Shown: positions 6,289-26,207 of the stretch, piece by piece | Numbering within the stretch: position 1 is the stretch's first letter | Layout: every line of letters begins with the position of its first letter | Notes under the pieces: generated by a model | The model's input: the letters and a program-made list of their open reading frames with translations, nothing else | Told to the model about the DNA's origin: nothing | The model's database searches: none | Made by a program: the position numbers and the translations under genes | Origin: Streptomyces sp. NBC_00335 | GTDB lineage: Bacteria; Actinomycetota; Actinomycetes; Streptomycetales; Streptomycetaceae | DNA length: 64,000 nucleotides | Assembly: GCF_036127095.1 (NCBI RefSeq) | Contig: NZ_CP108006.1 | Span: 372,001 to 436,000, forward strand | Direction of reading: 5' to 3'

Positions 6289-7064
6289 AGCACAGACAGT
6301 CCCTCTTCGGAGTGGCGCTCGACCCCCTGACCATGGACGAGACGGTCCAGCGCTGCCTCGACGCCGTACGGCGCGGTGAACAGATCGAGATCGGCATGGT
6401 CAACGCCGCCAAGCTGGTCAACATGCGCCGCGACCCCCGCCTCGCCGCGGCGGTCGCCGGCTGCGACCTCGTCCTGGCCGACGGCCAGGCCGTGGTCTGG
6501 GCCGGCCGCGTCCTCGGGGTGCGGCTCCCCGAACGGGTCGCGGGAATCGACCTGTTCATGCGGCTGCTGGCAGCCGCGGAGACCGCGGAGATCCCCGTCC
6601 ACCTGCTCGGCGCACGGCAGGACGTACTGGACCTCATGCTCGGCCGGATCGCCGAGCGGTTCCCCGCCCTGCGCGTGGCCGGCAGCCGCAACGGCTACTT
6701 CCAGGACTCCGAACAGGGCGAGATCGCCGACGCGGTGGCCGCGAGCGGTGCCCGGATGCTGTTCCTCGGCATGACCTCGCCCAAGAAGGAGATCTTCACC
6801 GCCGGCTACGGCAAGCGCACCGGCGCCCACGTGGTGCACGGCGTCGGCGGCTCCTTCGACATCCTGGCCGGCATCACCAAGCGCGCCCCCCTGGTCTGGC
6901 AGCGGATGGGGCTCGAATGGTTCTACCGGACCCTCCAGGAACCGCGCCGCCTGGGCAAGCGCTACCTCACCACCAATGCCGCCTTCCTCCTCATGACGGT
7001 CCGGGAACTCATCCGCCGCACACCGTCCACACCGTCTGCCGGTTCCGCGAACAGGAGTCACTGA
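6285..7064 (+). CDS. WecG/TagA/CpsF-family glycosyltransferase
   Basis: A 259-residue GT26-type enzyme. The family blocks are clear: VNAAKLVNMRRDP, LADGQAVVWAGR, LFLGMTSPKKEIF and VGGSFDILAG. Members transfer N-acetylmannosamine or N-acetylmannosaminuronic acid from UDP to a lipid-linked acceptor on the inner membrane face. That fits the epimerase and dehydrogenase encoded directly downstream, which would supply such a donor. The start (ATG 6285) overlaps the previous stop as ATGA, and the stop overlaps the next start by one base (TGATG). Confidence 0.9.
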   Translation: MKHRQSLFGVALDPLTMDETVQRCLDAVRRGEQIEIGMVNAAKLVNMRRDPRLAAAVAGCDLVLADGQAVVWAGRVLGVRLPERVAGIDLFMRLLAAAETAEIPVHLLGARQDVLDLMLGRIAERFPALRVAGSRNGYFQDSEQGEIADAVAASGARMLFLGMTSPKKEIFTAGYGKRTGAHVVHGVGGSFDILAGITKRAPLVWQRMGLEWFYRTLQEPRRLGKRYLTTNAAFLLMTVRELIRRTPSTPSAGSANRSH

Positions 7065-8320
7065 TGCGCGTCGTCGTCGTGGGACAGGGATACGTCGGCC
7101 TTCCGCTGGCCATCAGGGCCGCCGAGGTCGGACACCAGGTGGTCGGCTACGACGTGGACGCGCGGCGGGTCAAGAGCCTCGCCGCGGGCGAGTCGTACGT
7201 GGAGGACGTCTCCTCCGCGCGGCTGGCCAAGGCCCTGGAGCTGGGCACGTACCAGGTCAGTGACCAGGCCCGGGACTGCGGCGGCTTCGACGTCGCGGTC
7301 GTCACCGTCCCGACCCCCCTGCAGGACGGTGCCCCCGACCTGCGCTACATCGAGGAATCCGCGCACACCCTGGCCCGCTTCCTGCGGCCGGGGGCCACCG
7401 TCGTACTGGAGTCGACCACCTACCCCGGTACCACGGAGGAGCTGTTCGGCCCGATCCTGGAGGACGGTTCGGGCCTCACGGCCGGAGTGGACTTCCACCT
7501 CGGCTACAGCCCCGAGCGCATCGACCCCGGCAACAAGGTCTGGGGCTTCCAGCAGACGCCGAAGGTGGTCTCCGGCGTCAACGCCCTCTCGCTCAAGGCC
7601 GTGGAGACCTTCTACGCGGGCCTCGTCGACACCACGGTGCCGGTGCGCTCCCCCAAGGAGGCCGAGCTGGCGAAGCTGCTGGAGAACACCTTCCGGCACG
7701 TCAACATCGCCCTGGTCAACGAGATAGCCATGTTCGCCCGTCACCTCGACATCGACGTGTGGCAGACCATCGAGGCCGCCTCCAGCAAGCCGTTCGGCTT
7801 CATGAAGTTCACCCCGGGTCCCGGCGTCGGCGGGCACTGCCTGCCCATCGACCCCTCGTACCTGTCGTGGCGGGTGCAGCGCGAGCTCGGCCAGAACTTC
7901 CGCTTCGTGGAACTGGCCAACGACATCAACAGCCACATGCCCGAGTACGTGGCGCGCCGCGTCATGGACGCGCTCAACGCCAAGCGCCGCTCGGTCAACG
8001 GCTCCCGGATCCTGCTCCTGGGGCTGGCGTACAAGAAGAACACCGGCGACGCCCGGGAATCTCCGGCGGTGCGCGTCTCCCAGCTGCTCCTGGACATGGG
8101 GGCCAAGGTGCGCGCGGCCGACCCCCACGTGGTGGAGAGCATCAAGGTCGACGCCCGCCTCTCGCGGGTGGAGCCGACCCGCAAGGAGCTGGCCGCCGCC
8201 GACGTGGTCGTCCTGCTCACGGACCACGACTCCTTCGACTACCCGATGATCACCGAGCACGCCTCGCTGATCCTCGACTGCCGCAACCGGCTGTCGGGAC
8301 CCACGGTGGAGGTGCTCTGA
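7064..8320 (+). CDS. UDP-sugar 6-dehydrogenase (WecC/WbpA type)
   Basis: A 418-residue NAD-dependent nucleotide-sugar dehydrogenase. The N-terminal Rossmann motif GQGYVGLPLA, the catalytic Cys in GVGGHCLPIDP and the C-terminal LAYKKNTGDARESPA block are all present. It oxidises C6 of a UDP-GlcNAc or UDP-ManNAc type sugar to the uronic acid in two NAD-dependent steps. AGGAG lies 8 bases before ATG 7064. The frame extends upstream to 6917, but that part is a shadow of the glycosyltransferase gene. WecC- and WbpA-type enzymes cannot be told apart by eye here. Confidence 0.93.
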   Translation: MRVVVVGQGYVGLPLAIRAAEVGHQVVGYDVDARRVKSLAAGESYVEDVSSARLAKALELGTYQVSDQARDCGGFDVAVVTVPTPLQDGAPDLRYIEESAHTLARFLRPGATVVLESTTYPGTTEELFGPILEDGSGLTAGVDFHLGYSPERIDPGNKVWGFQQTPKVVSGVNALSLKAVETFYAGLVDTTVPVRSPKEAELAKLLENTFRHVNIALVNEIAMFARHLDIDVWQTIEAASSKPFGFMKFTPGPGVGGHCLPIDPSYLSWRVQRELGQNFRFVELANDINSHMPEYVARRVMDALNAKRRSVNGSRILLLGLAYKKNTGDARESPAVRVSQLLLDMGAKVRAADPHVVESIKVDARLSRVEPTRKELAAADVVVLLTDHDSFDYPMITEHASLILDCRNRLSGPTVEVL

Positions 8321-8324
8321 CTCC

Positions 8325-9452
8325 ATGCCCAGGATCATCTGTGTGGCCGGAGCCCGGCCCAACTACATGAAGATCAAGCCGGTGATGGACGCCCTGGAGC
8401 GCCGAGGCGCCGAGGTCGTCCTCGTCCACACCGGCCAGCACTACGACGAGTCCATGAACGATGTCTTCTTCCGCGACCTCGGCATCCGCTCCCCCGACCG
8501 CTATCTGGGAGCCGGGTCCGGCAGCCACGCCGTCCAGACCGGCCGGGTGATGGAGGCCTTCGAGCCGCTGCTCGAAGAGCTGGTCCCGGACGCGGTCGTG
8601 GTGGTCGGGGACATCAACTCCACCGTGGCCTGCGCGCTGGTCACCGCGAAGGCCGGGCCGCTGCTGGCCCACGTGGAGGCGGGCCTGCGCAGCCGGGACT
8701 GGAGCATGCCCGAGGAGGTCAACCGGGTCGCCACCGACCGGCTCAGCGACTACCTGCTGGCCCCCTCCCCCGACGCAGCCGCGAACCTGCGGGCGGAGGG
8801 GTACCGGGAGGACCAGATCCACGTCGTCGGCAACGTCATGATCGACACGCTGCTCGCCAATCTGGACCGGGCCCGGCGCTCCGACGTCCTCGACCGCTAC
8901 GGGCTCACCCGCGGCGGGTACGGCCTGGTCACCCTGCACCGGCCGGCCAACGTGGACGATCCGGACGCCCTGCGCGGCCTGCTGAAGGCGCTGGGCGAGA
9001 TCGCGGGCCGCTGCCCGCTGCTGCTGCCGGTGCACCCCCGGGCGGCCGAACGGCTGGCCGAGATCGGCGTCCCCGGCGGCATCCGGCTGGTGCCGGCCGC
9101 CGGATACCTCGATTTCATCGCCCTGCAGGACTCCGCCCGCGTGGTGCTCACCGACTCCGGGGGCATCCAGGAGGAAACCACCGCGCTCGGCGTGCCCTGC
9201 GTGACCCTCCGGGAGAACACCGAGCGGCCGATCACCGTCGAGCAGGGCACCAACGTCCTGGCGGGCACCGACCCGGACCGCATCACGGCCACGGTGCACC
9301 GGGTGCTCGACGATCCGCCCGCGCCCCGCTGCCCCGAGCTGTGGGACGGCCGCGCGAGCGAGCGCATCGCGCAGGTGCTCCTGGAGGGCGGCAGCGCGGC
9401 GACCCGGCCGCGGCCCACCGACCTCGTCCCGGGCAGCGCGCCCGTCGTGTAG
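8325..9452 (+). CDS. wecB: UDP-GlcNAc 2-epimerase (non-hydrolysing; WecB/WbpI type)
   Basis: A 375-residue GT-B-fold epimerase. Diagnostic segments are AGARPNYMKIKPVM, VHTGQHYDESMN, VVGDINSTVA, AHVEAGLRSRD and TDSGGIQEE. It inverts C2 of UDP-GlcNAc, or of its 3-acetamido-uronic derivative in the WbpI branch, giving a manno-configured donor. It starts 4 bases after the dehydrogenase stop, so the two are co-translated. It supplies the donor expected for the WecG-like transferase upstream. Confidence 0.93.
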   Translation: MPRIICVAGARPNYMKIKPVMDALERRGAEVVLVHTGQHYDESMNDVFFRDLGIRSPDRYLGAGSGSHAVQTGRVMEAFEPLLEELVPDAVVVVGDINSTVACALVTAKAGPLLAHVEAGLRSRDWSMPEEVNRVATDRLSDYLLAPSPDAAANLRAEGYREDQIHVVGNVMIDTLLANLDRARRSDVLDRYGLTRGGYGLVTLHRPANVDDPDALRGLLKALGEIAGRCPLLLPVHPRAAERLAEIGVPGGIRLVPAAGYLDFIALQDSARVVLTDSGGIQEETTALGVPCVTLRENTERPITVEQGTNVLAGTDPDRITATVHRVLDDPPAPRCPELWDGRASERIAQVLLEGGSAATRPRPTDLVPGSAPVV

Positions 9453-9545: not shown

Positions 9546-10340
9546 ATGGACCTCGCGGAGATCTGGCGGGTCATGCGCAGGCGCTGGTACGTGCTGCTGC
9601 CCGGGCTGCTGCTCACGGCCGCGCTCATCACCGGCGTGTACCTGCTGGTGCCGGTGGAGTACCGGTCGCAGAGCACGGTGACCCTCCTGAACTCGAAGAA
9701 GGCCACGGTGGCCTTCGACGGCAACCCCTTCCTGAGCACCCAGGCCTCGCTCACCGGCATGGCCGACGGACTCGCCCGGAACCTGAACTCCGACGATTCC
9801 AAGGCCGACCTGAAGGCCCAGGGACTCACCGGCGTGTACGAGGCGAAGATCGCCGACAACGCCCAGGGGCCCTTCATGTGGCTGAGCGTCACCGGCACCG
9901 ACCCGGCCGCCGTCCTGCAGTCCGACAAGCTCTTCACGGCCTACGCCGAGAAGCGGCTCCTGGAGTTCCAGGCCCAGCAGTCCGTGACCCCCGAGGCGAT
10001 GATCCGCATGGCGACGATCGTGCCCCCGCAGAAGCCCGAGGCGCAGACGAAGACCCGGCTCCAGTACCTGGTCATGGCGGCGGCGCTGGGCTTCGTACTC
10101 AGCCTGGTGGCCACCTTCTTCGTCGAGGCCCGGCGCCGCAAGGCCGGCAAGGCCGGCCGGCGCAAGCCCGTGGCAGCCGCTGCGGAGCCGCCCGAGACTC
10201 CCGGCTCCGATTCAGGTTCCGGTTCCGGTTCCGGTTCCGGTTCCGGTTCCGACGATCACACCGGCGCCCTCGACCCCACGGCCACGATGGCCCTCAAGGT
10301 CCTGCCCTCGTCCGCCTTCCGCTCCAAGGCACCGAAGTGA
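9546..10340 (+). CDS. Wzz-like polysaccharide co-polymerase (chain-length determinant)
   Basis: A 264-residue membrane protein. The N-terminal IWRVMRRRWYV is followed by a first membrane helix, an extracytoplasmic domain of about 150 residues and a second helix near residues 180-200. The protein ends in a basic cytoplasmic tail holding six Gly-Ser dipeptides encoded by six ggttcc hexamers (10215-10250). No Walker motifs or tyrosine-kinase domain are present. Wzz proteins set the length of Wzy-made polysaccharides. ATG 9546 follows GAAAGAAGG. The stop overlaps the flippase start as GTGA. It is one of three Wzz-like domains in the cluster sharing the LRRRWYV motif. Confidence 0.8.
   Translation: MDLAEIWRVMRRRWYVLLPGLLLTAALITGVYLLVPVEYRSQSTVTLLNSKKATVAFDGNPFLSTQASLTGMADGLARNLNSDDSKADLKAQGLTGVYEAKIADNAQGPFMWLSVTGTDPAAVLQSDKLFTAYAEKRLLEFQAQQSVTPEAMIRMATIVPPQKPEAQTKTRLQYLVMAAALGFVLSLVATFFVEARRRKAGKAGRRKPVAAAAEPPETPGSDSGSGSGSGSGSGSDDHTGALDPTATMALKVLPSSAFRSKAPK
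10215..10250 (+). repeat. Hexanucleotide microsatellite, 6 copies of ggttcc
   Basis: Six perfect tandem copies of ggttcc encode a Gly-Ser run in the cytoplasmic tail of the Wzz-like protein. Length changes would stay in frame and would alter only the tail length. Confidence 0.95.
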
Positions 10341-11839
10341 CCGCCCCCACCACGGACACGGGCATCCAGGGCCCGTCCGAGGTCCCGCCCGAGGCGCCGT
10401 CCCTGGCGCGCAAGGTGGGATCCGCCGCCCGGTGGAGCCTGGTCAACACCATGGTGATGCGCCTGGGCAACTTCGTCACCGGCATCATCCTCGCCCGCTT
10501 CTTCCTCGGCCCCGAGGCCTGGGGCGTCTACGGGATCGCCCAGACGGTCCTGCTGGTCCTCCTCTCCGCCAACGAGCTCGGGGTCTCCCTCGCCATCGTG
10601 CGCTGGGAGGGCGACCCCCGCCGCTTCGCCCCGACGGTCCTCACTCTGAGCGTCGCCTCCAGCCTCCTGCTGTACGCGGGCCTGTTCGCGGCCGCCCCCC
10701 TGGTGGCCCGGGTGCTCGGCTCCCCCGAGGCCTCCGGCGTGCTGCGGGTGATGTGCGTGTGCGTGGTCCTCGACGGGCTCTCTCAGGTGCCCGCCGGTTT
10801 CCTCACCCGGGAGTTCCAGCAGGGCCGGCGGATGGCCATCGACGCCGTCAACTTCGTCCTCAGTACCGCGGTGACGCTGCTGCTGGCCGTCCAGGGCTGG
10901 GGTGCGATGAGCTTCGCCTGGGGCTCCGTCGCGGGCAACGTGGCCGCGCTCATCGGCTGCTGCCTGGCCGCGCCCGGCACCCTGAAGTTCGGCTGGGACC
11001 GGGAGCAGGCCCGCGCCCTGCTGCGCTTCGGGCTCCCGCTCGCCGGGGCCAGCATGCTCGCGCTCGGGGTCGTCAACGTGGACACCATGGTGGTGGGTTC
11101 CTCCCTCGACCAGCTGGCCCTCGGCTTCTACGTGCTGGCCTTCAACATCTCCGGCTGGCCCGTACGGATCATCTCCGAGGCGGCCCGCCGGGTCTCCTTC
11201 GCCGGGTTCTCCCGGCTGGCCGACTCCCCCGGCGCATTGGCAGGGGGCTTCGGCCGGGCCCTCGGCGTGGTGATGACGGGCACGGTCCCGCTCTGCGTGC
11301 TGCTGGCCGCCCTCGCCGGGCCGATCGTGGAGCTGGTCTACGGGGCGCGCTGGCTGCCCGCCGCCGCCGCACTGCCGTGGCTGATGGGCCTCGGGCTGGT
11401 CCGGATCGGCTGCGAACTGGCCTACGACTGCCTGGTGGCCATCGGCCGCCGCCGCTCCCTCATCGGGGTCCAGGGCCTGTGGCTCGTCGTCCTGGTCCCG
11501 GTGCTGGTGGCCGGCGCCGGCGCGGGCGGGATCGAGGGGGTGGCCCAGGGCCACGTCCTGGTGGCCGGGGCCGTCGTGGTGCCGGTGTTCCTCTTCGCCC
11601 TGCACCGGGGCGGCGTCGGGCTGGGCACCGTGGCGCGCGCCTGCGCCTGGCCCTTCCTCGGCGGGGCCGTGATGACGGGCGTGGTCCTCGCACTGGAACG
11701 GCTCCTCGGCGACGGCGTCCTCGCGCTCCTGGCGACCGCGGCCGCCGCGACCCTGTGCTACGCCGTGTGCGTCCTGCCCAGCTTCGGGTTCCTGCGCGGC
11801 GCCGAACCGGCCGCCGCGGCCGCGACGATCAAGGACTGA
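10337..11839 (+). CDS. Wzx-like polysaccharide flippase (MOP superfamily)
   Basis: A 500-residue integral membrane protein with about 12-14 hydrophobic segments from residue 40 onward. The early block WSLVNTMVMRLGNFVTGIILARFFLGPEAWG is typical of the polysaccharide transporter (PST/Wzx) family. It would flip undecaprenyl-linked repeat units to the outer face for polymerisation. GTG 10337 overlaps the previous stop (GTGA). The frame runs upstream to 9341, but that is a shadow of the Wzz-like gene. Wzx-, Wzy- and Wzz-type functions all occur in this cluster, which points to the Wzx/Wzy route of assembly. Confidence 0.9.
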   Translation: MTAPTTDTGIQGPSEVPPEAPSLARKVGSAARWSLVNTMVMRLGNFVTGIILARFFLGPEAWGVYGIAQTVLLVLLSANELGVSLAIVRWEGDPRRFAPTVLTLSVASSLLLYAGLFAAAPLVARVLGSPEASGVLRVMCVCVVLDGLSQVPAGFLTREFQQGRRMAIDAVNFVLSTAVTLLLAVQGWGAMSFAWGSVAGNVAALIGCCLAAPGTLKFGWDREQARALLRFGLPLAGASMLALGVVNVDTMVVGSSLDQLALGFYVLAFNISGWPVRIISEAARRVSFAGFSRLADSPGALAGGFGRALGVVMTGTVPLCVLLAALAGPIVELVYGARWLPAAAALPWLMGLGLVRIGCELAYDCLVAIGRRRSLIGVQGLWLVVLVPVLVAGAGAGGIEGVAQGHVLVAGAVVVPVFLFALHRGGVGLGTVARACAWPFLGGAVMTGVVLALERLLGDGVLALLATAAAATLCYAVCVLPSFGFLRGAEPAAAAATIKD

Positions 11840-12989: not shown

Positions 12990-13826
12990 GTGCGCTCCAT
13001 CGCCCGGGCCCCCTGGGAGCTGCTCAAGCGGGCCTTCGGCTGGCTGGTGCTCTTCGAGGCCAGGAACAAGCTCGTACTGGCCCCCTCCGCCCTGCGGCTG
13101 CGCCGTTTCGAGAACGCGGAGACCAGCAGGCTCGGCTCGCTCCTGGGCCGGCCGCCGGCCGCCCTGGTCGCCACCGTGATCGCCACCCACCGGCGCCCCG
13201 AGGCCCTGCGCGCGGCGGTGGCCTCGGCGCTGGCGCAGACCGTGTCCGACCAGGTGGTCGTCGTCGTGGACGACGGGGCAGGTCTGCCCGAACTCCCTCC
13301 GGACCCCCGGCTCTTCGCGGTCTCACTGGCCCGGAACACGGCCACGGCCGGGGTCGTGCGCAACGTGGGGATCCGGCTGAGCCGCTCTCGGTACGTGGCC
13401 TTCCTGGACGACGACAACCTGTGGGAGCCGGACCATCTGGAGCAGGCCCTGACGGTCCTGGAGTCACCGGGCGGGCCGGACGCGGTGTACACCGCGCTGC
13501 GCAGGATGCTCCCCGACGGATCGCAGCGGGACGTCCTGTCGGTGCCCTTCGACCGCCGCCGCTCGGCGCACGAGGCCTTCCTCGACACCAACGCCTTCGT
13601 GGCGCGGCGCACCCCGGCCCTGCACTTCAGCCGGCTGCGGCGGACCCCGGAGGTCCTGCCCCGCGAGGACTGGGAGCTCGTGCGCCGCTACAGCCGGCGC
13701 CACGAGGTCCGCCACCTGCCCCGGCCGACCGTCCGCTACCTGGTCAACCCGGAGAGCTTCTACACCGCCTGGGAGGGGTCGGCGCCCGCGGGCCCGGCGC
13801 CCACGGGTCCGGCCCCCACCGCCTGA
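12990..13826 (+). CDS. GT2-family glycosyltransferase
   Basis: A 278-residue GT-A enzyme. The nucleotide-sugar fold starts at about residue 55 with ATVIATHRRPEALRAAVAS. VVVVDDGA and the metal-binding AFLDDDNLWEPDHLEQ follow. The N-terminal 50 residues carry an extra basic/hydrophobic stretch that may sit on the membrane. GTG 12990 follows GAGAGGA. It is the last gene of the rightward arm, and its end faces the next GT2 gene only 10 bases away. Donor and acceptor are unknown. Confidence 0.85.
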   Translation: MRSIARAPWELLKRAFGWLVLFEARNKLVLAPSALRLRRFENAETSRLGSLLGRPPAALVATVIATHRRPEALRAAVASALAQTVSDQVVVVVDDGAGLPELPPDPRLFAVSLARNTATAGVVRNVGIRLSRSRYVAFLDDDNLWEPDHLEQALTVLESPGGPDAVYTALRRMLPDGSQRDVLSVPFDRRRSAHEAFLDTNAFVARRTPALHFSRLRRTPEVLPREDWELVRRYSRRHEVRHLPRPTVRYLVNPESFYTAWEGSAPAGPAPTGPAPTA

Positions 13827-13836
13827 CCCGCCCGGG

Positions 13837-14835
13837 TCAGGGTCCCGGCGTGGCGCGCAGGGCCCTCCGGCTGGTCAGGGCACGCGCCGCGGCCCGGCTG
13901 GCCGGGCGGCCGAGCGCCGCACGGGAGGTCTCCCGTAGCAGCACGGCCGCGTGGAAGGCCGCGGTGGCCGGCGCCGAGTGCCGGCGGCCGTAGAGGCGCA
14001 CGCGGTTGAGGGTCAGCAGGGTCCACAGGCGCGGGGAGACCTGCGAGTCCCCGCCGAGGTGGACGGCCGAGGCGGCGGGTTCGAGGCGGGTGGCGAAGCC
14101 GTGGTCGCCGGCCCGCAGGCAGTACTCGGTCTCCTCCGAGTACAGGAAGAACGATTCGTCCCAGGCGCCGCAGGCGTCCAGGCACTCACGGGAGAGGGCC
14201 ATCAGCGCGCCGGACGCCCAGTCGGCGACCGTCCTGCGCCCGTACGCCGCCGGATCGGTGACCAGTTCGCTCCACCGCGGGAAGCGTCCCGCGCGACGGT
14301 TGCCGATCACGGCCTCGCCGAGGGCCCGGGTCACCCGGGACTCCCTGCGCAGCGAGTGGTGGAGCGTGCCGTCCTCCTCGTACAGCAGGGGCACGCTGAT
14401 GCCCACCCGGCGCCCGCCGTCCCCGCCGTCGACGGGGGCGCCGAGCGCGCCGACGAGGTGGCGCGCGCAGCCCTCCCGCATCCGCAGGTCCGGGTTGCAG
14501 ACCAGGCCGACGCTGAAGCCGCCCTCCCATCCGGCGGCGGCCTTCAGGGCCGCGTTCACCCCGGCGGCGTAGCCGGCGTTGCGACCGGTCTGGACGATCG
14601 TGGCCTCCGGCGCCAGCGACCGGATCACCTCGACGGTGTCGTCGGCGGAGTCGTTGTCGGCGACGACGAGCCGCCAGTCGACCCCGGCCATGCCCTGCGG
14701 CAGGGAGGCGAGGAACCCGGGTATCACCTTGGCGCTGTTCCAGGTGACGACGAGGACGGCTACGGGGCCGGCTGCATCCGGCCGGTCCGGGCCGCGGTCG
14801 GCTGCGGGGCCGGAAGCTGTGCTGTCGGAGGGCAC
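13837..14835 (-). CDS. GT2-family glycosyltransferase (rhamnosyltransferase-like)
   Basis: A 332-residue GT-A enzyme. Key blocks are VLVVTWNSAKVIPGFLASL, VVADNDSADDTVEV and WDESFFLYSEETEYCLRA, typical of the WbbL/rhamnosyltransferase-like GT2 group. GTG 14835 is selected because GGAG lies 6 bases upstream. This start places the first 76 bases inside the 3' end of the Wzz-Wzy fusion gene, so the two are tightly coupled. The frame continues upstream as a shadow of that gene. The actual sugar cannot be read from sequence. Confidence 0.85.
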   Translation of the reverse strand: MPSDSTASGPAADRGPDRPDAAGPVAVLVVTWNSAKVIPGFLASLPQGMAGVDWRLVVADNDSADDTVEVIRSLAPEATIVQTGRNAGYAAGVNAALKAAAGWEGGFSVGLVCNPDLRMREGCARHLVGALGAPVDGGDGGRRVGISVPLLYEEDGTLHHSLRRESRVTRALGEAVIGNRRAGRFPRWSELVTDPAAYGRRTVADWASGALMALSRECLDACGAWDESFFLYSEETEYCLRAGDHGFATRLEPAASAVHLGGDSQVSPRLWTLLTLNRVRLYGRRHSAPATAAFHAAVLLRETSRAALGRPASRAAARALTSRRALRATPGP

Positions 14836-16805
14836 GGGTTCTCCAAGGTTCGGGGCTCGGGCGCGGAGCGCCGGATGAAGCCGAGGTAACTGCCTCCGGC
14901 GGCGATCGTCAGGAAGAACATCCCGGCGAACATCGGGAAGCTGAGGGCGTCGAAGGTGGCCGCGCTCACCAGGGCGACGAGGGCCGAGGCGAAGAAGGCC
15001 TGGCCGAGCTCCCGGTCGGACTCGTCGGCGGCGATACGGCGGATGGCGCCACCCTGGTGGATTCCGGCGAGGAACAGCGCCAGGAGCGCGAGCAGGCCCA
15101 GCAGGCCCATCTCCGCCAGGGTCAGCATGTACTGGTTGTCGGTGAAGAAGTACAGGTCCGGTGTGAAGGTGCCCAGGCCCCGGCCGAACAGCGGGCGTTC
15201 CTCCAGGTAGGGCACGATCGCGCTGTACTTCACGGTGCGGGCCTGGGTGCTGCTGTCGGAGTTCGACACGAAGGACGCGAAGAGCGTGGTGATCGTGCCG
15301 ATCAGTCCGGGTACCAGGACCTTGAAGACGGCCACCGAGCCGAGGAGCAGTCCGAAGGCGGTCCAGCGGCGCTGCGGCTTCCACCTCGGCACCATCACCA
15401 GCACCACGATGAGGGCCCCGATGATGGAGGTCCGCGACACCGTCAGCGGCAGGGCGCCGCCCATCAGCGCCACCGGCGCCCAGCGGCGCCAGCGGCTCAG
15501 GTGCGCCCGGACCGGATCGAAGGCCTGCTGGATCGCGAAGGGCAGCATCAGGGCGAGCATGCCGCCGAACTCCAGCGGCTGCGCGGTGGTCGAGCGCGGC
15601 CGGGTGAACGCCCCGCGGTCCAGGGTGGTGATCTGCGCGACGCTCGACTGGAGCCCCGGGATGCTGATCTTCTCGGCGATGTTCGTCGCGGTGAAGAAGT
15701 CGTAGTAGCCGATGGCGGCGACCACCGCCCCCATCACGACGGCCCGCCGCAGCAGCACGTCCAGGCGTGCCCGGTCCTGGATCCCGGCGGAGATCAGCAC
15801 CACCAGCGAGACCCAGACCAGCAGGCCGATCAGTCCCCGGTCTGCGCCCAGCACCTCCTTGTGCGAGCTTCCCCGGGAGGCGTTCGCCAGGTACGAGGCA
15901 AGGACCGAGACGGCCAGCAGCCACATGACGACCCGGGGCAGCCGGGTGCCGGGGGCCGGTCTGATCCGGCCGGTCAGCCAGGTGGCCAGGTACCAGAAGA
16001 GGGCCAGGAGCGCGAAGACGTTGGCCGGGGTGCCCACGCCGCCCAGGCCCGGAAGGGTCAGGTTGGAGGGGATGAAGAAGGCCAGCCCCAGATAGCCGGT
16101 GAGCAGTGCGGTGGCGTCCAGCTCACGATGGCGGGTCCGCTTGCGCCCGCGCTTGCCGGCCGTACCGGCCGCGGCCTCGGCGGCCTCCCGCCGGCGCCGC
16201 CGGCCCGCCAGCATGCTCTCCATGACGAAGGAGGCGGTGAAACCGGCGACCAGGCCCGCGATGACCACGGCCAGTACCTGCTGGTAGCGGGTCTTGAGCT
16301 GGGGTTTCGGGGTCTGCGGCAGCACCACGGGGGCGGTCTGCACGAAGTACGCGGGCTGTACCTTGGCCGCCGCCTGGAGCGCGTTGAGCTGCTCCCCGGC
16401 GAACTCGGTGAGCTTGGTGGTCTCCTTGAGCACCTTGTTGCGGTTGGTGCCCGTGACGGTCAGGGTGAGCATCGGGCCCGAGGCGTTCGCGGCGAATCCG
16501 ACCGTGTAGGGGTCGGTCACCCCGAGACCGTGCAGGTCCCGCGCCGCGTCGGCGCCCGACAGGGTCCTGATGAGCACGTCGGCGGTCACCACGAGCGAAC
16601 CGCCCGCGTTCGCGATGGGGTTGCCGAAGGCGGGGGCCAGTTCGGCCACCGCCGTGGAGTCCAGGAGGGCCACCGAGCTCTGGGACTGGTAGGACACCGG
16701 GACCGTCTGGTACAGCTGCCCGCCCGCGAGGACCCCGCACAGCGTCAGGGGCGCCATGACGTACCAGCGGCGCCGCAGTACGGCTCCTATCTCACCGATG
16801 TTCAC
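14760..16805 (-). CDS. Natural fusion: Wzz-like co-polymerase domain + O-antigen polymerase/ligase (Wzy/WaaL-like) domain
   Basis: A 681-residue membrane protein in one uninterrupted frame. Residues 1-210 are a Wzz-like module: NIGEIGAVLRRRWYV, a first helix, a periplasmic-type domain, and a second helix followed by a basic linker (GRRRRREAAEAAAG, KRGRKRTRHR). Residues about 230-650 hold about ten hydrophobic segments and a large extracytoplasmic loop, with RGLGTFTPDLYFFTDNQYMLTLAEMGLLG matching the Wzy_C/O-antigen ligase family. Length control and polymerisation (or ligation) would therefore sit in one chain. GTG 16805 follows GGGAGGGAGC; the upstream extension to 16997 is a shadow. Its 3' end overlaps the next GT2 gene. 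Confidence 0.85.
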   Translation of the reverse strand: MNIGEIGAVLRRRWYVMAPLTLCGVLAGGQLYQTVPVSYQSQSSVALLDSTAVAELAPAFGNPIANAGGSLVVTADVLIRTLSGADAARDLHGLGVTDPYTVGFAANASGPMLTLTVTGTNRNKVLKETTKLTEFAGEQLNALQAAAKVQPAYFVQTAPVVLPQTPKPQLKTRYQQVLAVVIAGLVAGFTASFVMESMLAGRRRRREAAEAAAGTAGKRGRKRTRHRELDATALLTGYLGLAFFIPSNLTLPGLGGVGTPANVFALLALFWYLATWLTGRIRPAPGTRLPRVVMWLLAVSVLASYLANASRGSSHKEVLGADRGLIGLLVWVSLVVLISAGIQDRARLDVLLRRAVVMGAVVAAIGYYDFFTATNIAEKISIPGLQSSVAQITTLDRGAFTRPRSTTAQPLEFGGMLALMLPFAIQQAFDPVRAHLSRWRRWAPVALMGGALPLTVSRTSIIGALIVVLVMVPRWKPQRRWTAFGLLLGSVAVFKVLVPGLIGTITTLFASFVSNSDSSTQARTVKYSAIVPYLEERPLFGRGLGTFTPDLYFFTDNQYMLTLAEMGLLGLLALLALFLAGIHQGGAIRRIAADESDRELGQAFFASALVALVSAATFDALSFPMFAGMFFLTIAAGGSYLGFIRRSAPEPRTLENPCPPTAQLPAPQPTAARTGRMQPAP

Positions 16806-16887
16806 GAATGCTCCCTCCCAACCACCCTGGAACCGTTGGCGTGTTGCCCGGCGTCCTGGGAAGATCGAACACGACGGAAGGAATCCT

Positions 16888-17583
16888 GTGTCGCCTGGTG
16901 AGCTGTTCCGCACGCTGCGCCGCCGCTGGTACGTGCTGGCCCTGGCGGCAGTGCTCGCGGCCTCCGGGGCGCTCCAGGTGCTCCGGCCCACCACCACCTA
17001 CGTGAGCACCGCGATCGTGGTCCTCAAGCCGCCCGTGACGAGCAACCAGCCCAACCAGCTCGCCAATCTGCAACCGCCGCTGGCCGCCGTCTCCCTCGCC
17101 GCCGTACAGCAGCTGGACTCCTCCGACGGGGAGGCCGAGCTGCGCGCGGCCGGGGTCGCGGGCACCTACCGGCTGATCCCGCGCAACAGCGGCACGAGCG
17201 TCACGCCGCGCTATCTGATCCCCTCCCTCCAGATCCAGGCGGAGCACACGGACCCGGCCACGGCCGACAGCTCGGTGCTCAAGGTCGTCGAGGTCTACGG
17301 GAAGCACCTTTCGGACATGCAGGCCGAGCAGCGGATCCCGGCGGCGGGCCGGATGAGCGTCACCCTGCTCGTGCCGCCCTCCGCGGTGGCGCAGCTCGGG
17401 ACGAAGAGCCGCGGGCTGGCCGGGACGGCGGTACTGGCCGTGGTCGCCGGGGTGGCCTGCGCACTGTGGACCGATCAGTTCCTGGCGGGCCGCGCCCGGC
17501 GCCGGCGCGTTCGCGCCGGCGCTGGGGGCAACGGGCCGCTGCGGGGCGAGAGCCCCGTGCCGACGGCCGCGGCGGCCCGCTGA
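16888..17583 (+). CDS. Wzz-like chain-length determinant protein
   Basis: A 231-residue protein, third of the Wzz-like set. SPGELFRTLRRRWYV leads into a first membrane helix. An extracytoplasmic domain of about 140 residues and a second helix (LAGTAVLAVVAGVACALW) follow, then a short basic tail. There is no kinase motif. GTG 16888 is preceded by GGAAGGAA. It is divergent from the Wzz-Wzy fusion gene with an 82-bp shared promoter region, so the two are likely expressed in parallel. Its 3' end is convergent with a GT2 gene. Confidence 0.78.
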   Translation: MSPGELFRTLRRRWYVLALAAVLAASGALQVLRPTTTYVSTAIVVLKPPVTSNQPNQLANLQPPLAAVSLAAVQQLDSSDGEAELRAAGVAGTYRLIPRNSGTSVTPRYLIPSLQIQAEHTDPATADSSVLKVVEVYGKHLSDMQAEQRIPAAGRMSVTLLVPPSAVAQLGTKSRGLAGTAVLAVVAGVACALWTDQFLAGRARRRRVRAGAGGNGPLRGESPVPTAAAAR

Positions 17584-17639: not shown

Positions 17640-18686
17640 TCAGATCCCTCGGCGCTTCCAGGACTGCCACCAGAGCCATTCGCGTCCCCGGTCGGCGACC
17701 GCGGACAGCACCAGCGGCTGGAGGTACGGCATCGTGCGGGCCCCGATCCGCCGGCGCCTGCGCAGTGCCCCGTACTCGGCGAGCGAGGTGTACTGCGGCA
17801 GGCACTCGGCGGCGAAGGCCTCCAGCTCCTCGACCGGGACCACGTCGGTGCGCCCGCGGTCGTAGGCCCGGTAGGCGCGCCGCAGGGCGTACCGGGCGAG
17901 CCGGGTGCGGGCCGCGGTGGACAGCCGGCCCGCCTCCGGGAGCAGGCCGCCGCACTTGTCCAGCACCGAGTCGAAGGCGACGAGGCGCTGGCGCAGGTCG
18001 TCGAGCTGTCCGCCGAAGTCGGTGGTGGACATGTTGTTGCCGTGGACCCGGTAGAAGGCCTGGTCGGCCCCCCGGACGTAGCCCACGTCTGCGTGGGCGG
18101 CGAGCCGCATCCACATCTCGATGTCCCCGGCGTGCGGAAGCTCCGGATCGTAGCCCCCGACCTTGCGCTGGAGGCTGGTGCGCACGACCACCTCGGGTGA
18201 GGTGATGCACCCGGTGCCCTCCCGGAAGCGCCGCTCCAGCCACCACCGCCCGGGGTAGACCACCGAGCCGGTGCTCTGGGTGCGGGCCTCGGGCAGCGGC
18301 CCGCCGTGCTGGAACCGCAGCGGCCTGCCGTAGGCGAAGCCGGCCCGCGGGTGGGCGTCGAGCAGGGCCGCGGCGCGCACCAGGGCGCCGGGGACCAGCC
18401 GGTCGTCGGCGGAGAGCAGGGCGACGTAGTCCCCGTCCGCCCACTCCAGCAGGCCCTCGTTGTAGGTGGCGATGTGCCCCTGGTTCTTCTCGTGGACCCG
18501 GACCTCGATCCGGGGATCGGCGGCCGCGAGGGCGCGCGCGACCTCCGCGGAATCGTCGGGCGAGGCGTCGTCGATGATCAGTACCCGTACGTCGACGCCT
18601 TCCTGTTCGTCCAGGACGCTCTTGACGCAGTCGGCCAGGAAGTGGCCGTACTTGTAGCAGGGGATCACCACGCTGACGGTGCTCAC
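17640..18686 (-). CDS. GT2-family glycosyltransferase
   Basis: A 348-residue GT-A enzyme. STVSVVIPCYKYGHFLADCV starts the fold, then LIIDDASPDDSAEVA and YVALLSADDRLVPGAL provide the metal/nucleotide-binding region. About 90 helical residues follow. The GTG start (18686) overlaps the stop of the large secreted protein gene as GTGA, so the two are translated together, which suggests a linked role in building or processing the same surface polymer. The long upstream frame is a shadow of that gene. Confidence 0.87.
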   Translation of the reverse strand: MSTVSVVIPCYKYGHFLADCVKSVLDEQEGVDVRVLIIDDASPDDSAEVARALAAADPRIEVRVHEKNQGHIATYNEGLLEWADGDYVALLSADDRLVPGALVRAAALLDAHPRAGFAYGRPLRFQHGGPLPEARTQSTGSVVYPGRWWLERRFREGTGCITSPEVVVRTSLQRKVGGYDPELPHAGDIEMWMRLAAHADVGYVRGADQAFYRVHGNNMSTTDFGGQLDDLRQRLVAFDSVLDKCGGLLPEAGRLSTAARTRLARYALRRAYRAYDRGRTDVVPVEELEAFAAECLPQYTSLAEYGALRRRRRIGARTMPYLQPLVLSAVADRGREWLWWQSWKRRGI

Positions 18687-21600
18687 TGGCCGGACACCTC
18701 CGTGGATCCCTCCGTGAGCGGGGCGGGGGCCGTGGTGGTGAAGACCGGGCCGACCCAGTAGTTCACCGATCCGAAGGTGTTGTTCGGGAAGACCGTGGCC
18801 GCCCCGTACTTGTAGAGCCCGTTGCCGGTGACGGGGCCGCCGGTGCCGTCGGCCGGGGCGACCAGCGGGTAGGAGCGGTGCGCGGCGCTGAAGTAGCCGC
18901 CGTCCACGGAGTACTTGCCGTTCGGCGCGTGGTACGAGGCCACGTACTCGGTGTTCGCGGTGATGGCCACCGGGGTGGTGAAGTGCAGCTGCTGCCAGCC
19001 GGACAGGGTCTCGCTGCCGAAGGTTCCGGTGGCCAGGAGCGTGCCGGTGGCGGTCCAGAGGCTGCCGGTGTGGGTGCCGGTGTTCCCGGGGCCCTTGTAG
19101 AAGGTGACGCCGGTGATGTAGCCGGCGACCGTGGACTGGAAACGGGTGCCCAGTTCCACGGAGTTGGTGTCGTCGCCGACGTTGGCGGTGGTCGGGGTGG
19201 CGTTCGGACCCCACAGGGTGCAGGGGCAGGTCACCGCCGGAGGGGTCGCGCTGGTGGTGAAGGTCCAGGTGACCGGCGCGGCCATGAGGTTGCCCCACAG
19301 GTCGGCGGCCTGCACCGACGCCGTGTAGGTGGTGTTCAGCGCCAGTTCGGAGGACGGGGTGAAGGTGGCGCTGTTGGACACGTCGAGGATCTTGCTTCCG
19401 GGGACGTTGGAGCCGCCGGGACCCTTGAGGGTGAACACCAGGGTGTCCACGTCCACGGCCGAGCTGAAGGTGGCCTTCACCGTCGTGGTGATCGCGGTGC
19501 CGGTCGCCGCCGACTGCGGGGTGGTCGAGGTGACGGTCGGGGGCGTCGTGCTCGCGGTGGCGGTGTCGAGGACCGCGTCGACCCAGTAGTTGCTGCCGGA
19601 GGAGGCGCTCGACGGGAACCCGCCGGTGCCGCTGTAGCGGTAGACGCCGTTGCCGCCGTCGGTGCCGCTCTTCAGGGCGGTGAGCGGGGCGAGCCCCGCG
19701 GCGGCCGAGGCGAAGGTGGTGTCGTAGGAGTATCCGCCGTTGGGGGCGAAGTAGGAGGCGATGTAGGTGGTGTTGGCCTTGACGGGGATCGGGGAGGAGA
19801 AGTTGAGCTGCTGCCAGCCCGAGGCCGTCTCGTTGGTGAAGGTGCCCGTGGCCAGGCGCTGGCCGGTACTGCTCCACAGGCTGCCCGTGTGGGTGCCGGT
19901 GTTGGCCGGGGACTTGTAGAAGCGGACGCCCGTGATCGAACCGGGCACCGAGGAGCGGATCTTCACGCCGAGTTCCACGGCGCTGCCGTCGCCGGCGTTG
20001 ACGGTGCCCGGCACGGCCGCGGCGGGCCAGACGGTGCAGGGGCACTGCTGGGGGCCCACGGTCAGCGGCACGGTGGTGGTGGCGCCGATGTTGACGCTGT
20101 CGTCCACCGCGCGGACCTTGATCTGCGCGGCACCGGGGGTGGTCGGGGTCCACTTGTAGCTCCAGGACGCGACGCCCGTGGTGGCCTTCCAGGTGGTTCC
20201 GCCGTCGGTGGAGACCTCCACGCGGGCCACGACTCCGCCACCGCTGTCGGAGGCGGTGCCCGTGATGGTCACGGGCCGCAGGGCGGGCACCGTGGCATTC
20301 GCCGCGGGGCTGCTCACGGTGATGACGGGGCCGGTGGTGTCCGTGGAGGCGGTGGCCACGAGCAGGTTGCTCTGCAGGGACTTGGGCTGGACCCCCATGT
20401 CGGCGAAGATGTTCACCGTCGCCTGCTGCATCCGCTTGTCCTCGGTGACCACCGCGTCGTCGGGGTTCCCGGTCGGCATGTTGGTCAGGCCCCAGGACCA
20501 CTGCACGGTGCCGGAGCCGAAGACCAGCGCGTTCGAGATCTGGTCGCGGAAGGCGACCAGGCTGTGCGTCGCGGTCCCGTTGCCGTAGGTGTTGCCGTAG
20601 TCGAGGCGGTACTTGCCGTCGTTGATGTCCACCGTGGTGGACGACATCGCGATCTGCCCGGGCGGGCGGGCGGCGTCCTCCACGTCACTGTCCCACTCGT
20701 AGCCGAGCGTGCCGACGGGGAAGGTGGCGGTCTGGGAGGGGGTCAGGTTCGCGACGGTGGTGCCCCGCCACAGGCGCATCTTGGCGTAGGCGCCGGGCAC
20801 GGTGATCGCGTCGCTGCGGTAGCCGTTCACGCTGAACAGCGAGCCGGTGACCTGGTTCTGCGGCTGGTAGGGCCGGCCGTTCGTGGCGCTGGCCGGGTCC
20901 ATGAAGGTACCCGTCCAGATCCCGCTCGGGTCGGGGATGCCGTTGGGCTGGGGGAAGGAGAGCTTGGTCTCCTTGTAGCAGACCAGGGTCCGGTTGGCCG
21001 TGTTGGCCCCGTCGATGCTGGGGGTCAGGCGGGTCTTCCAGAAGACCTCGTTGCCGGCGAAGTAGGTCTGGTTGACGCCCGCGTGACGGGCGTTCAGCGC
21101 GTTGGTGAACTGGTCCTGGGTCCAGTACTCGTCGTGGCCCGAGGACATGAACACCTTGTGGTTCTGCAGCTGGGTCGCGCCCTTGGTCGACATGTCGATG
21201 CCCGACATGTAGCTGACGTCATACCCGTTGCGCTCCAGCCAGGCGACCATCTGGTACTCGGATCCGTAGATCCCGTTCTCCCCGCCGATGTCCATCGGCC
21301 GGTTGTAACTGACCTCGTAGGCGCGGCCGTCGGGCGCGGGGCCGGCGCCGTCGTACAGGTCCTGGCCGCCGTAGTTGTTGTACGCCTGCCAGGTCTGGTC
21401 GCTGGTCTGCACGACGATGTCGGAGTGGCTGGAGTCGTTGCGGACCACGAACGGATAGGGCATGACCCCGTTGCCGTCCGCCTGGTCGAAGTTGGCTATG
21501 TAGAGGCCGGAGACGGCGTCGGAGGGCACTGACCAGGTCGCGGTGACCGGCCAGTTGCCGCAGTCGACCAGGCCGGTGGAGGGCTTGGTGGTGCAGCTCT

Positions 21601-21985
21601 GCGGGGCGCCGCCCTGCGGGAAGTTCGCCGGGTGGGTCTGGGCGGCCTGGGCCGGGGTCGACATCAGGCGGGCGCCGTCACCCCCGTAGTGGCCGAGTCG
21701 GTAGACCGACACCTTGTACGCCGTCGGCGACTGGATCTTGAACTGCAGGGTCTCGCCCGCCTGCACGCTCTCCTTGGCCGGGAAGCCCTTGATGTCGCCG
21801 TAGGCGCTGGGCGCGAACCAGTCGGACATCGGTGTGCCCGTCTTGGAGTTCTCGCACACGATCGCGTTGGAGCCGGGACCGCACGGATCCGCCGCGACCG
21901 CCACCGATGGCGGCAGCGCCGCCGCCATCAGCGCTGCCACCACGGTGTAGAGCCCGTACCGCAGCAGCCTTGTCCTTCTGTTCAT
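18683..21985 (-). CDS. Large secreted protein: N,N-dimethylformamidase-beta-like domain, Ig-like domains and two DUF4082 repeats
   Basis: A 1100-residue exported protein. Residues 1-32 form a signal peptide. Residues about 33-560 resemble the large-subunit domain of N,N-dimethylformamidase (blocks YRLGHYGGDGARLM, YVITNFDQADGNG-like and SSGHDEYWTQDQF). A bacterial Ig-like domain follows at about 545-650. DUF4082 domain 1 spans about 655-800, a second Ig-like domain about 805-910, and DUF4082 domain 2 about 915-1085. The two DUF4082 copies share FYKGPGNTGTHTGSLW-type repeats. DUF4082 is a beta-sandwich thought to bind carbohydrate or surfaces. Real substrates are unknown; amidase activity is not assured. 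Coupling to a GT2 gene places it in the polysaccharide programme. Confidence 0.82.
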   Translation of the reverse strand: MNRRTRLLRYGLYTVVAALMAAALPPSVAVAADPCGPGSNAIVCENSKTGTPMSDWFAPSAYGDIKGFPAKESVQAGETLQFKIQSPTAYKVSVYRLGHYGGDGARLMSTPAQAAQTHPANFPQGGAPQSCTTKPSTGLVDCGNWPVTATWSVPSDAVSGLYIANFDQADGNGVMPYPFVVRNDSSHSDIVVQTSDQTWQAYNNYGGQDLYDGAGPAPDGRAYEVSYNRPMDIGGENGIYGSEYQMVAWLERNGYDVSYMSGIDMSTKGATQLQNHKVFMSSGHDEYWTQDQFTNALNARHAGVNQTYFAGNEVFWKTRLTPSIDGANTANRTLVCYKETKLSFPQPNGIPDPSGIWTGTFMDPASATNGRPYQPQNQVTGSLFSVNGYRSDAITVPGAYAKMRLWRGTTVANLTPSQTATFPVGTLGYEWDSDVEDAARPPGQIAMSSTTVDINDGKYRLDYGNTYGNGTATHSLVAFRDQISNALVFGSGTVQWSWGLTNMPTGNPDDAVVTEDKRMQQATVNIFADMGVQPKSLQSNLLVATASTDTTGPVITVSSPAANATVPALRPVTITGTASDSGGGVVARVEVSTDGGTTWKATTGVASWSYKWTPTTPGAAQIKVRAVDDSVNIGATTTVPLTVGPQQCPCTVWPAAAVPGTVNAGDGSAVELGVKIRSSVPGSITGVRFYKSPANTGTHTGSLWSSTGQRLATGTFTNETASGWQQLNFSSPIPVKANTTYIASYFAPNGGYSYDTTFASAAAGLAPLTALKSGTDGGNGVYRYSGTGGFPSSASSGSNYWVDAVLDTATASTTPPTVTSTTPQSAATGTAITTTVKATFSSAVDVDTLVFTLKGPGGSNVPGSKILDVSNSATFTPSSELALNTTYTASVQAADLWGNLMAAPVTWTFTTSATPPAVTCPCTLWGPNATPTTANVGDDTNSVELGTRFQSTVAGYITGVTFYKGPGNTGTHTGSLWTATGTLLATGTFGSETLSGWQQLHFTTPVAITANTEYVASYHAPNGKYSVDGGYFSAAHRSYPLVAPADGTGGPVTGNGLYKYGAATVFPNNTFGSVNYWVGPVFTTTAPAPLTEGSTEVSGQ

Positions 21986-22030: not shown

Positions 22031-23146
22031 TCAGCGCAGCGCTGCTGAGAGCGCGTCCACGACCCGCTGCTGTTGGGCGGCGGTGATCTGCGGGAAGAGC
22101 GGGAGGGACAGCATCCGGTCGGCGGCCAGCTCCGCGTGCGGGAAGGCCCCACGGCCGTGGCCCAGGTGGGCGAAGGCCGGGGTGAGATGGACGGGCGCCG
22201 GATAGTGCACGCCCGCGCCGATGCCTTCCGCGTTGAGCTTGCCGACGACGGCGTCGCGATCGGCGCCGGCGACCCGGATGACGTACAGGTGCCATACATG
22301 GACGTTGCCCGGCGCCGTGACCGGCAGGGTGAGGCGTCCGGTGGCCGCCAGGTCCGCGAGCAGGCCGTCGTAGCGGGCGGCGGCGGCCCGGCGGGCCTCG
22401 TTCCCCTCGGCGAGCCTGGCCAGCTTGGCCCGCAGCACCACGGCCTGCAGACCGTCGAGCCGGCTGTTGAATCCGGCCACGTCGTGCCGGTACTTGGCCA
22501 CGCCTCCGTGGTTGGCCAGCGCCCGCACCAGGTCGGCGGCCTCCTCGTCGTCGGTCACCACCGCGCCCGCGTCCCCGTAGGCGCCCAGGTTCTTGCCCGG
22601 GTAGAAGCTGGTCGCGGCGATCCCGCCACTGCCCGGGGTGCGGCCCTCGCGGGAGGCCCCCTGGCTCTGCGCGGCGTCCTCGACGAGCTTGGCGTACGGG
22701 GGCAGGCCCGCGGCCAGAGCGGCCGTGTCGGCGCACTGCCCGTAGAGGTGGACCGGGACCACCGCGCGGGTGGCCTTGGTGACCGCGTCGAGCGCGGCCT
22801 GCGGGTCCAGCAGCAGGGTGTCCGGGAGGCAGTCGGCCAGCACCGGCCGTGCGCCGATCCGGGCGACCGCGCCGGCGGTGGCGATGAAGGTGTTCGCGGG
22901 CAGCACGACCTCGTCGCCGACGCCCACTCCGCTCGCCCGCAGGGCCAGTTCCAGGGCGTCGGTGCCGTTGGCCACGCCGACGCAGTGTCCGACCCCGGCG
23001 AAGTCCGCGTACTCGCGCTCGAAGGCCCGTACCTCCTCGCCGCCGATGAAGGCGGTGTCGGCCAGTACGCGGTCGAATCCCGCACGTAATGCGTCCGCGA
23101 CCTCGGCGTGCGCGGCCTTCAGGTCGACGAGCGGTATCTGGTTCAT
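22031..23146 (-). CDS. DegT/DnrJ/EryC1 sugar aminotransferase, WbpE/WlbE type
   Basis: A 371-residue PLP enzyme. The Schiff-base lysine is K185 in SFYPGKNLGAYGDAGAVV. NGTDALELALRASG and PVHLYGQCAD are close to the WbpE branch, which aminates the 3-keto group of UDP-2-acetamido-3-keto-glucuronate. The start is ATG 23146, overlapping the previous stop as ATGA. Together with the MocA-type oxidoreductase (26208-27308) and the acetyltransferase at 4081 it would complete the 3-acetamido branch. The substrate is inferred from the enzyme set. Confidence 0.88.
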   Translation of the reverse strand: MNQIPLVDLKAAHAEVADALRAGFDRVLADTAFIGGEEVRAFEREYADFAGVGHCVGVANGTDALELALRASGVGVGDEVVLPANTFIATAGAVARIGARPVLADCLPDTLLLDPQAALDAVTKATRAVVPVHLYGQCADTAALAAGLPPYAKLVEDAAQSQGASREGRTPGSGGIAATSFYPGKNLGAYGDAGAVVTDDEEAADLVRALANHGGVAKYRHDVAGFNSRLDGLQAVVLRAKLARLAEGNEARRAAAARYDGLLADLAATGRLTLPVTAPGNVHVWHLYVIRVAGADRDAVVGKLNAEGIGAGVHYPAPVHLTPAFAHLGHGRGAFPHAELAADRMLSLPLFPQITAAQQQRVVDALSAALR

Positions 23147-23955
23147 GCGGCTGTGCTCCCCATCCGTGTCTCCGGCCTCCGGCCGGTCTCCAACTCATCG
23201 GCCCGCAGCTCGTCGAGCGCCGGGCCCCCCGCCTCGCGCAGCCGGCGGGCGGGGCTTCCGGCCCACACCTCGCCTGCCGGCACGTCGGTCAGGACCGTGC
23301 TTCCCATCCCGGTCAGCGACCAGGCGCCGACCTCCCGGTACTCCCGGACCAGCGCGCCGGCGCCCACGTAGGCCCCGCGCCCCAGCCGTACCCCGCCGCC
23401 GAGGCGGACCCCGGAGGCCAGGGTCGCGAAGTCCCCGACCTCGTCGTCGTGGGTGAGGACCACGTGCGGCATGACCGCCACGTGGGACCCCACCCGTACC
23501 GCCGCCGTCAGCACGCAGTGCGCGAGCAGCACCGTGCCGGGGCCGAGGACCGAGGAGCCGGAGAGGGCCGCCGTGGGGTGGACCACGGTGGCGTACCGGC
23601 TCTCGGGCAGTGCCAGGCGCCGCACCAGGCGGGCCCGCACCCCGTAGTCGCGGGGGCTGCCGACGCAGACCACCACGCGGGCGTCCACACGTTCGTGCAC
23701 CAGGGCGCTGCCGCCCAGGACGGGCACCCCGTCGACGTCCCGGCCGTGCAGGGCCGGGTCGTCGTCGAGGTGCCCGGCGAGCCGCCAGCGCGGGGCCCGG
23801 CCGGCCGCCAGGTCGGCGGCGGCCGCGTCCCGTACGGCCTGGGCGGTTTCGCGGGCGAAGCCGCCCGCGCCGACGATCAGCAGGCTTTCGGTCGTCGGGG
23901 TCCCGGTCCCTGTCCCGGTCCCGGTCCCGGTCCCGGGATCGTGCGGCCCGCTCAT
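23143..23955 (-). CDS. NeuD/PglD-type sugar O/N-acetyltransferase
   Basis: A 270-residue protein. An N-terminal Rossmann-like PglD_N domain begins at about residue 25 (LLIVGAGGFARETAQ) and ends near 105. A left-handed beta-helix with hexapeptide turns (about 110-235) follows, ending AGSPARRLRE. PglD-type enzymes N-acetylate UDP-4-amino-4,6-dideoxy sugars. The first 20 residues contain a Gly-Thr run encoded by hexamer repeats. Start and stop overlap both flanking aminotransferase genes (ATGA each side). Pairing with the DegT enzyme upstream suggests a second acetamido sugar. Confidence 0.85.
   Translation of the reverse strand: MSGPHDPGTGTGTGTGTGTPTTESLLIVGAGGFARETAQAVRDAAAADLAAGRAPRWRLAGHLDDDPALHGRDVDGVPVLGGSALVHERVDARVVVCVGSPRDYGVRARLVRRLALPESRYATVVHPTAALSGSSVLGPGTVLLAHCVLTAAVRVGSHVAVMPHVVLTHDDEVGDFATLASGVRLGGGVRLGRGAYVGAGALVREYREVGAWSLTGMGSTVLTDVPAGEVWAGSPARRLREAGGPALDELRADELETGRRPETRMGSTAA
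23901..23936 (-). repeat. Hexanucleotide microsatellite, 6 units of tcccgg
   Basis: Six tandem units (one variant, tccctg) encode a Gly-Thr run at the N-terminus of the NeuD/PglD-type acetyltransferase. The unit length preserves frame. Confidence 0.9.
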
Positions 23956-26125: not shown

Positions 26126-26151
26126 CGCCCTGCCCCTACTGAGTCGGTCAT
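26122..26151 (-). CDS. 9-codon mini-ORF coupled to the SDR gene
   Basis: ATG 26151 follows AGGGAACACC and encodes MTDSVGAGR. Its TGA overlaps the TTG start of the epimerase gene as TTGA. The uncommon TTG start and overlapping stop suggest the mini-ORF exists to deliver ribosomes to the epimerase start. It could be fortuitous at this length. Confidence 0.4.
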   Translation of the reverse strand: MTDSVGAGR

Positions 26152-26207
26152 GGTGTTCCCTGCTGTGCCCGGCGCGCCGCACGCGGCCCGGGCGGCGCCT
26201 CCGACCC

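Follow-up and report, generated by a model that had tools for sequence, protein, structure and literature searches.

A gene that joins a polysaccharide co-polymerase (PCP) to an enzyme of WaaL/Wzy fold was analyzed in a 64,000-nucleotide stretch of Streptomyces sp. NBC_00335 (contig NZ_CP108006.1, positions 372,001 to 436,000), called the window below, to which all coordinates refer. The gene occupies 14760..16805 of the minus strand, from a GTG start codon at 16803-16805 to a stop codon at 14760-14762, and encodes 681 uninterrupted residues. A Shine-Dalgarno-like GGGAGGGAG lies on the same strand at 16811..16819, 6-14 nt 5′ of the GTG. Of 71 fused sequences, 40 begin with GTG and 31 with ATG, and a Shine-Dalgarno core is present at -16 to -4 in 52, compared with 14% of random positions. 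A first-pass annotation, made from the sequence alone, had proposed a continuous 681-codon frame with its own ribosome-binding site that encodes a Wzz-type co-polymerase and a Wzy/WaaL-like enzyme. The frame, GGGAGGGAG and the relatives bear out the first part; the second holds by virtue of the conserved frame and of the AlphaFold2 model of the full chain (pLDDT 88.8, pTM 0.82), in which a PCP fold is combined with a WaaL/Wzy fold. The product is almost certainly a PCP-Wzy protein.

The PCP domain (residues 1-200; 16206..16805, minus strand) comprises a first transmembrane helix (TM1, residues 14-34), a four-strand ectodomain (residues 38-169) and a second transmembrane helix (TM2, from residue 170). 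Its predicted fold matches solved Wzz, Wzc and KpsE chains and shows the PCP hallmark of two transmembrane helices on either side of an extracytoplasmic four-strand α/β domain (motif 1); a further hallmark, joint encoding with Wzy and Wzx functions, is also present. Two more co-polymerases, both with starts chosen by homology, are encoded on the plus strand: free PCP-A (9546..10340), a paralogue of the fused domain, and PCP-B (16888..17583), a distant third copy that is divergent from the fusion gene with 82 bases between the starts. The fused chain begins LRRRWYV; the same start, claimed earlier for two free-standing proteins, is identical in PCP-B and near-identical (MRRRWYV) in free PCP-A. 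Over residues 1-219, the fused chain shares 39% identity with free PCP-A (E 1e-36) and 22% with PCP-B (E 0.003). When searched against Pfam, the whole fused chain matched no Wzz profile up to E = 10, and residues 1-215 searched alone matched none at E ≤ 0.01. PF02706 was matched at E ≤ 0.01 by 17 of the 28 members of the PCP-domain alignment (best 4e-5), the fused chain not being among the 17. For residues 1-210 of the single sequence, Pfam gives no Wzz match; the Wzz assignment rests on the matches of relatives and on the predicted fold.

The Wzy domain (residues 229-647; 14865..16121, minus strand) has a WaaL fold: residues 226-647 were predicted to adopt the WaaL/Wzy fold, with WaaL as the closest structural match, and the expected Wzy_C profile (PF04932) matched residues 445-575 in this C-terminal half, the whole-chain score of 58.6 bits exceeding the cut-off of 31.7. 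Arg458 (15432..15434, minus strand), Arg523 (15237..15239, minus strand) and Asp556 (15138..15140, minus strand) are invariant in 28/28 aligned sequences. Both Arg are candidate diphosphate-binding residues by analogy with PMC10920833, and Asp556 stands opposite His354 of an HN-type paralogue (L001), a pairing taken from the margin of a short local alignment. The acceptor-activating His of O-antigen ligase (GT121) is absent from all 28 sequences, which carry the Asp instead. According to section 11 of PMC10920833, replacement of the ligase His by Asp or Glu together with conserved Arg characterizes most inverting polymerase families of clan GT-C1. Because the invariant Asp stands where ligases have His, this half is very probably a polymerase rather than a ligase, which sharpens the earlier wording of "polymerase or ligase" while leaving the WaaL/Wzy-fold assignment intact.

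The two domains are connected by a basic linker (residues 201-228; 16122..16205, minus strand), probably cytoplasmic, which varies in both sequence and length: one of the 31 columns at residues 198-228 is invariant, and the segment aligned to residues 197-228 spans 28-53 amino acids in the 71 sequences. Median ratios of nonsynonymous to synonymous substitution (dN/dS), calculated by a simple method over 2444 non-independent pairs, were lowest in Wzy (0.27), the ectodomain (0.32) and TM1 (0.35) and higher in TM2 (0.63) and the linker (0.85).

Several other accounts of this gene were weighed. That the fused frame is a sequencing or gene-prediction artefact has a negligible probability. The frame is broken in one relative (L067/L127, the same genome, G115) by a shift within the Wzy half; against this, a contig search of named genomes found the same continuous frame in 70/74 related loci, the other four being L067 and three with two separate genes (L066, L068, L072), and purifying selection acts on the ectodomain as well as on the Wzy half. 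On this evidence, with 70 named loci and 38 genomes (that of the window among them) showing the intact frame, the artefact is refuted. Internal initiation or cleavage of the linker might instead yield two products, with PCP and Wzy functionally apart, as the weakly constrained, variable linker would allow. No internal start is conserved between residues 186 and 245, the commonest in-frame start codon being present in 40/71 sequences, at residue 200 within the TM2 helix, and two products are improbable. About equally doubtful is a C-terminal half that acts as an O-antigen-type ligase or glycan transferase and is merely positioned by the PCP half. Two points speak for it and against a polymerase: WaaL is the best structural match, and the listed relatives, where named, mostly appear in databases as "O-antigen ligase family protein". 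On the other side stand the acceptor-site Asp of all 28 sequences, typical of most inverting polymerase families as described in that section of PMC10920833, and the gene's surroundings: no other Wzy-type gene was found among those scanned in the window, where it lies near Wzx and co-polymerases, and the genome's remaining PF04932 gene is 4.6 Mb away.

A Wzy orthologue was found in 43/249 Streptomycetaceae genomes and was fused in 38, unfused in 4 and frame-broken in 1. The unfused genomes represent one genus, Kitasatospora, one of them being recorded as Saccharothrix sp. ST-888. (The name of that record, L068, NZ_JYJF01000046.1, is doubtful; it clusters with Kitasatospora in both trees described here.) The gene order in these genomes is PCP-A, Wzy, Wzx in 4/4 (L066, L068, L072, L124). 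In all four, the earliest codon at which Wzy could start comes 6-7 bases past the PCP stop, and in three it shares the PCP frame, so that loss of the stop codon would suffice to produce a fusion. In maximum-likelihood trees, the sampled fused chains form one group both for PCP (15/15 rows, 100/100) and for Wzy (15/15 rows, 100/98), placed in each tree beside Kitasatospora and amid unfused relatives. By these trees, the N-terminal PCP-Wzy fusion has a single origin. In the PCP tree, the branching pattern among the fused, free and Kitasatospora copies of PCP-A is not resolved. A protein search collected 314 proteins, 153 of which had the PCP-Wzy order; for the PCP-Wzy proteins among those listed, public annotation shows the Wzy_C domain only.

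Genomes with the fused gene also keep a separate co-polymerase. With the free protein as query, a second PCP-A orthologue outside the fusion was found in 39/39 such genomes (38 intact, 1 broken) of the 249 searched, whereas the 4 unfused genomes have a single PCP-A, adjoining Wzy. In the overlapping set of named genomes, a second PCP-A lies within the fetched flank in 63/71 loci and elsewhere in the genome for 7 of the other 8, giving 70/71; the eighth locus is a 4-kb contig. Free PCP-A is directly upstream of Wzx in 59/64 loci of the fused lineage that show Wzx. In the window's own genome, no further PCP of this kind was detected at E ≤ 1 beyond the three window copies. In the simplest history, PCP-A-Wzy-Wzx was duplicated, after which one copy lost Wzy and the other became fused. 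Since a separate co-polymerase is retained, PCP and Wzy may work at a ratio other than 1:1, and the fixed ratio of length control to polymerization put forward in the first-pass annotation is not supported. Free PCP-A of the window has a C-terminal tail with a Ser-Gly repeat that is missing from the fused copy, and in one of the 63 loci (L048) the free PCP-A frame runs into the first half of Wzx, the rest of Wzx being in another frame, through either a sequencing error or a genuine change. PCP-B is present in 71/71 Streptomycetaceae loci.

A class-wide survey matched 72/345 genomes, and 68 Wzy loci lie outside Streptomycetaceae. A separate PCP gene was directly upstream of Wzy, defined as a PCP stop < 320 bases before the Wzy domain, in 64/68, and directly downstream in 2/68; the last 2/68 are at contig ends, one without a visible PCP and one with a C-terminal PCP fusion only. 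No N-terminal PCP fusion was found among these 68 loci. The reverse arrangement, in which Wzy carries the PCP domain C-terminally, was present in 4/68 loci (L088, L097, L098, L143), and the protein search added two reverse chains (P0277, P0310). A separate upstream PCP also accompanies 3/3 reverse fusions with flank. The reverse fusions probably had two origins: two are needed by the best Wzy tree, the well-supported branches of which force one, and two are forced by well-supported branches of the PCP tree, one of them depending on a branch of great length. Elsewhere in the phylum, 198 genomes from other classes yielded 5 loci, and in 5/5 a separate PCP is upstream. Fusion, adjacency and reverse fusions are together strong indirect evidence that the partners act as one complex; to call the fusion direct evidence, as was done earlier, is too strong.

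The fusion gene sits in a Wzx/Wzy-type polysaccharide cluster. The Wzx flippase (Polysacc_synt_3 profile match, 500 amino acids) is encoded at 10337..11839 on the plus strand, its gene overlapping that of free PCP-A by GTGA. Glycosyltransferases of family 2 are encoded at 12990..13826 (plus strand, from the domain scan) and, as scanned regions with approximate starts, at 13837..14811 and 17640..18761 (both minus strand). Genes for a UDP-sugar dehydrogenase, a UDP-GlcNAc 2-epimerase, two DegT aminotransferases, a hexapeptide acyltransferase and a Gfo/Idh oxidoreductase are located at 6917-9452 and 22031-27572; the set is similar to that of the Wbp route for diacetamido-uronic acid, which suggests an acidic polymer. 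Within the sugar cluster, the product of 18683-21985 is large and carries DMFA2_C, Ig-like and two DUF4082 domains. No PF02397 initiating transferase was found in the window; the three of the genome are far off, at 2.63, 4.00 and 5.02 Mb.

In the WzzE:WzyE complex, as described in the portion of PMC10030265 covered here, approximately eight Wzz subunits surround one Wzy inside the ring lumen. By analogy, the fused chain would be a ring subunit that anchors an inverting WaaL-fold polymerase in a ring with free PCP-A, a model that we hold to be somewhat favored overall. Undecaprenyl-diphosphate repeat units would be flipped by Wzx, the two Arg of the Wzy half would hold the diphosphate, and the acceptor would be activated by Asp556, the residue that replaces the ligase His. 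The PCP half of the fusion would dock next to its own polymerase, and free PCP-A subunits would complete the ring. Given the measured Wzz:Wzy ratio of ~8:1 and the kept second PCP, it is reasonably likely that the fusion and free PCP-A act in one assembly. If a ring is needed, with one position taken by the fused chain and the rest by free PCP-A, the retention of the second copy would be explained. Tentatively, each ring may contain one fused chain. It is similarly conceivable, on balance less so than the shared assembly itself, that the ring is mixed and covalently keyed with exactly one polymerase per ring, that the fusion arose alongside a duplication by which one PCP copy became available for the other ring positions, and that the reverse fusions reached a similar solution separately. 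Because fused and free PCP consist of membrane and motif-1 parts only, a mixed ring would control length through contact with the polymerase and not as a "measuring cylinder".

The fused chain might instead act alone as a 1:1 homo-oligomer, free PCP-A being a leftover or a secondary modulator. It has a full PCP domain, with TM1, ectodomain and TM2, the ectodomain is constrained, and short PCPs that have no long helical hairpin might assemble unlike the enterobacterial octamer. Set against these points, the second PCP-A accompanies the fused gene without exception in the genome search and was found for 70/71 loci of the overlapping set, in the flank or elsewhere in the genome, the reverse fusions keep a separate upstream PCP as well, and one WzyE (~50 Å) nearly fills the 57 Å lumen, in which eight would not fit (PMC10030265, same portion). 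The homo-oligomer is accordingly rather unlikely, and the mixed assembly of fused and free chains is preferred.

The component families are known; what seems new is how they are joined, how widely the joined form is kept and that a second copy goes with it. WzzE-WzyE of enterobacterial common antigen consists of two chains at ~8:1 (PMC10030265, in part) and differs from the single chain described here; WzzE has a long helical hairpin that the fused PCP lacks, and WzyE is a retaining-clan enzyme. In the O-antigen ligase WaaL (PDB 7TPG, GT121), an acceptor-activating His takes the place of the Asp. GT-C1 inverting polymerases of GT125-GT129, with the exception of GT127, share with the fused chain Arg and an Asp or Glu for the ligase His, and in the covered portion of PMC10920833 no PCP fusion is mentioned for GT125-GT129. 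In Wzc (PCP-2a), a cytoplasmic kinase is attached instead of a polymerase, and KpsE (PCP-3) works with an ABC transporter, unlike the polymerase-joined PCP. WaaL itself is not known to have a PCP domain. The nearest counterpart is the unfused PCP-Wzy-Wzx of Kitasatospora, where homologues of both halves are adjacent in the same order with a stop codon between them and one PCP-A match per genome. No description of PCP-Wzy fusions, reverse Wzy-PCP fusions, their conservation or the second-copy rule was found in the open-licence literature searched.

For annotation, PCP-Wzy proteins listed as Wzy_C only or as "O-antigen ligase family protein" can be corrected. More data on the stoichiometric interplay of Wzz and Wzy are wanted according to part of a 2025 review (PMC12004945), and the pictures of one Wzz-Wzy complex are of low resolution (PMC10030265, in part). 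A naturally joined pair offers cryo-EM and reconstitution a stable target and gives a handle on how both partners cooperate. Within the family, the fusion is kept wherever the cluster is seen outside Kitasatospora, bar one frame-broken copy (39/249 genomes), and the presence of a second PCP with the fused gene, compared with a single PCP in unfused relatives, turns the question of ratio into a simple genetic test.
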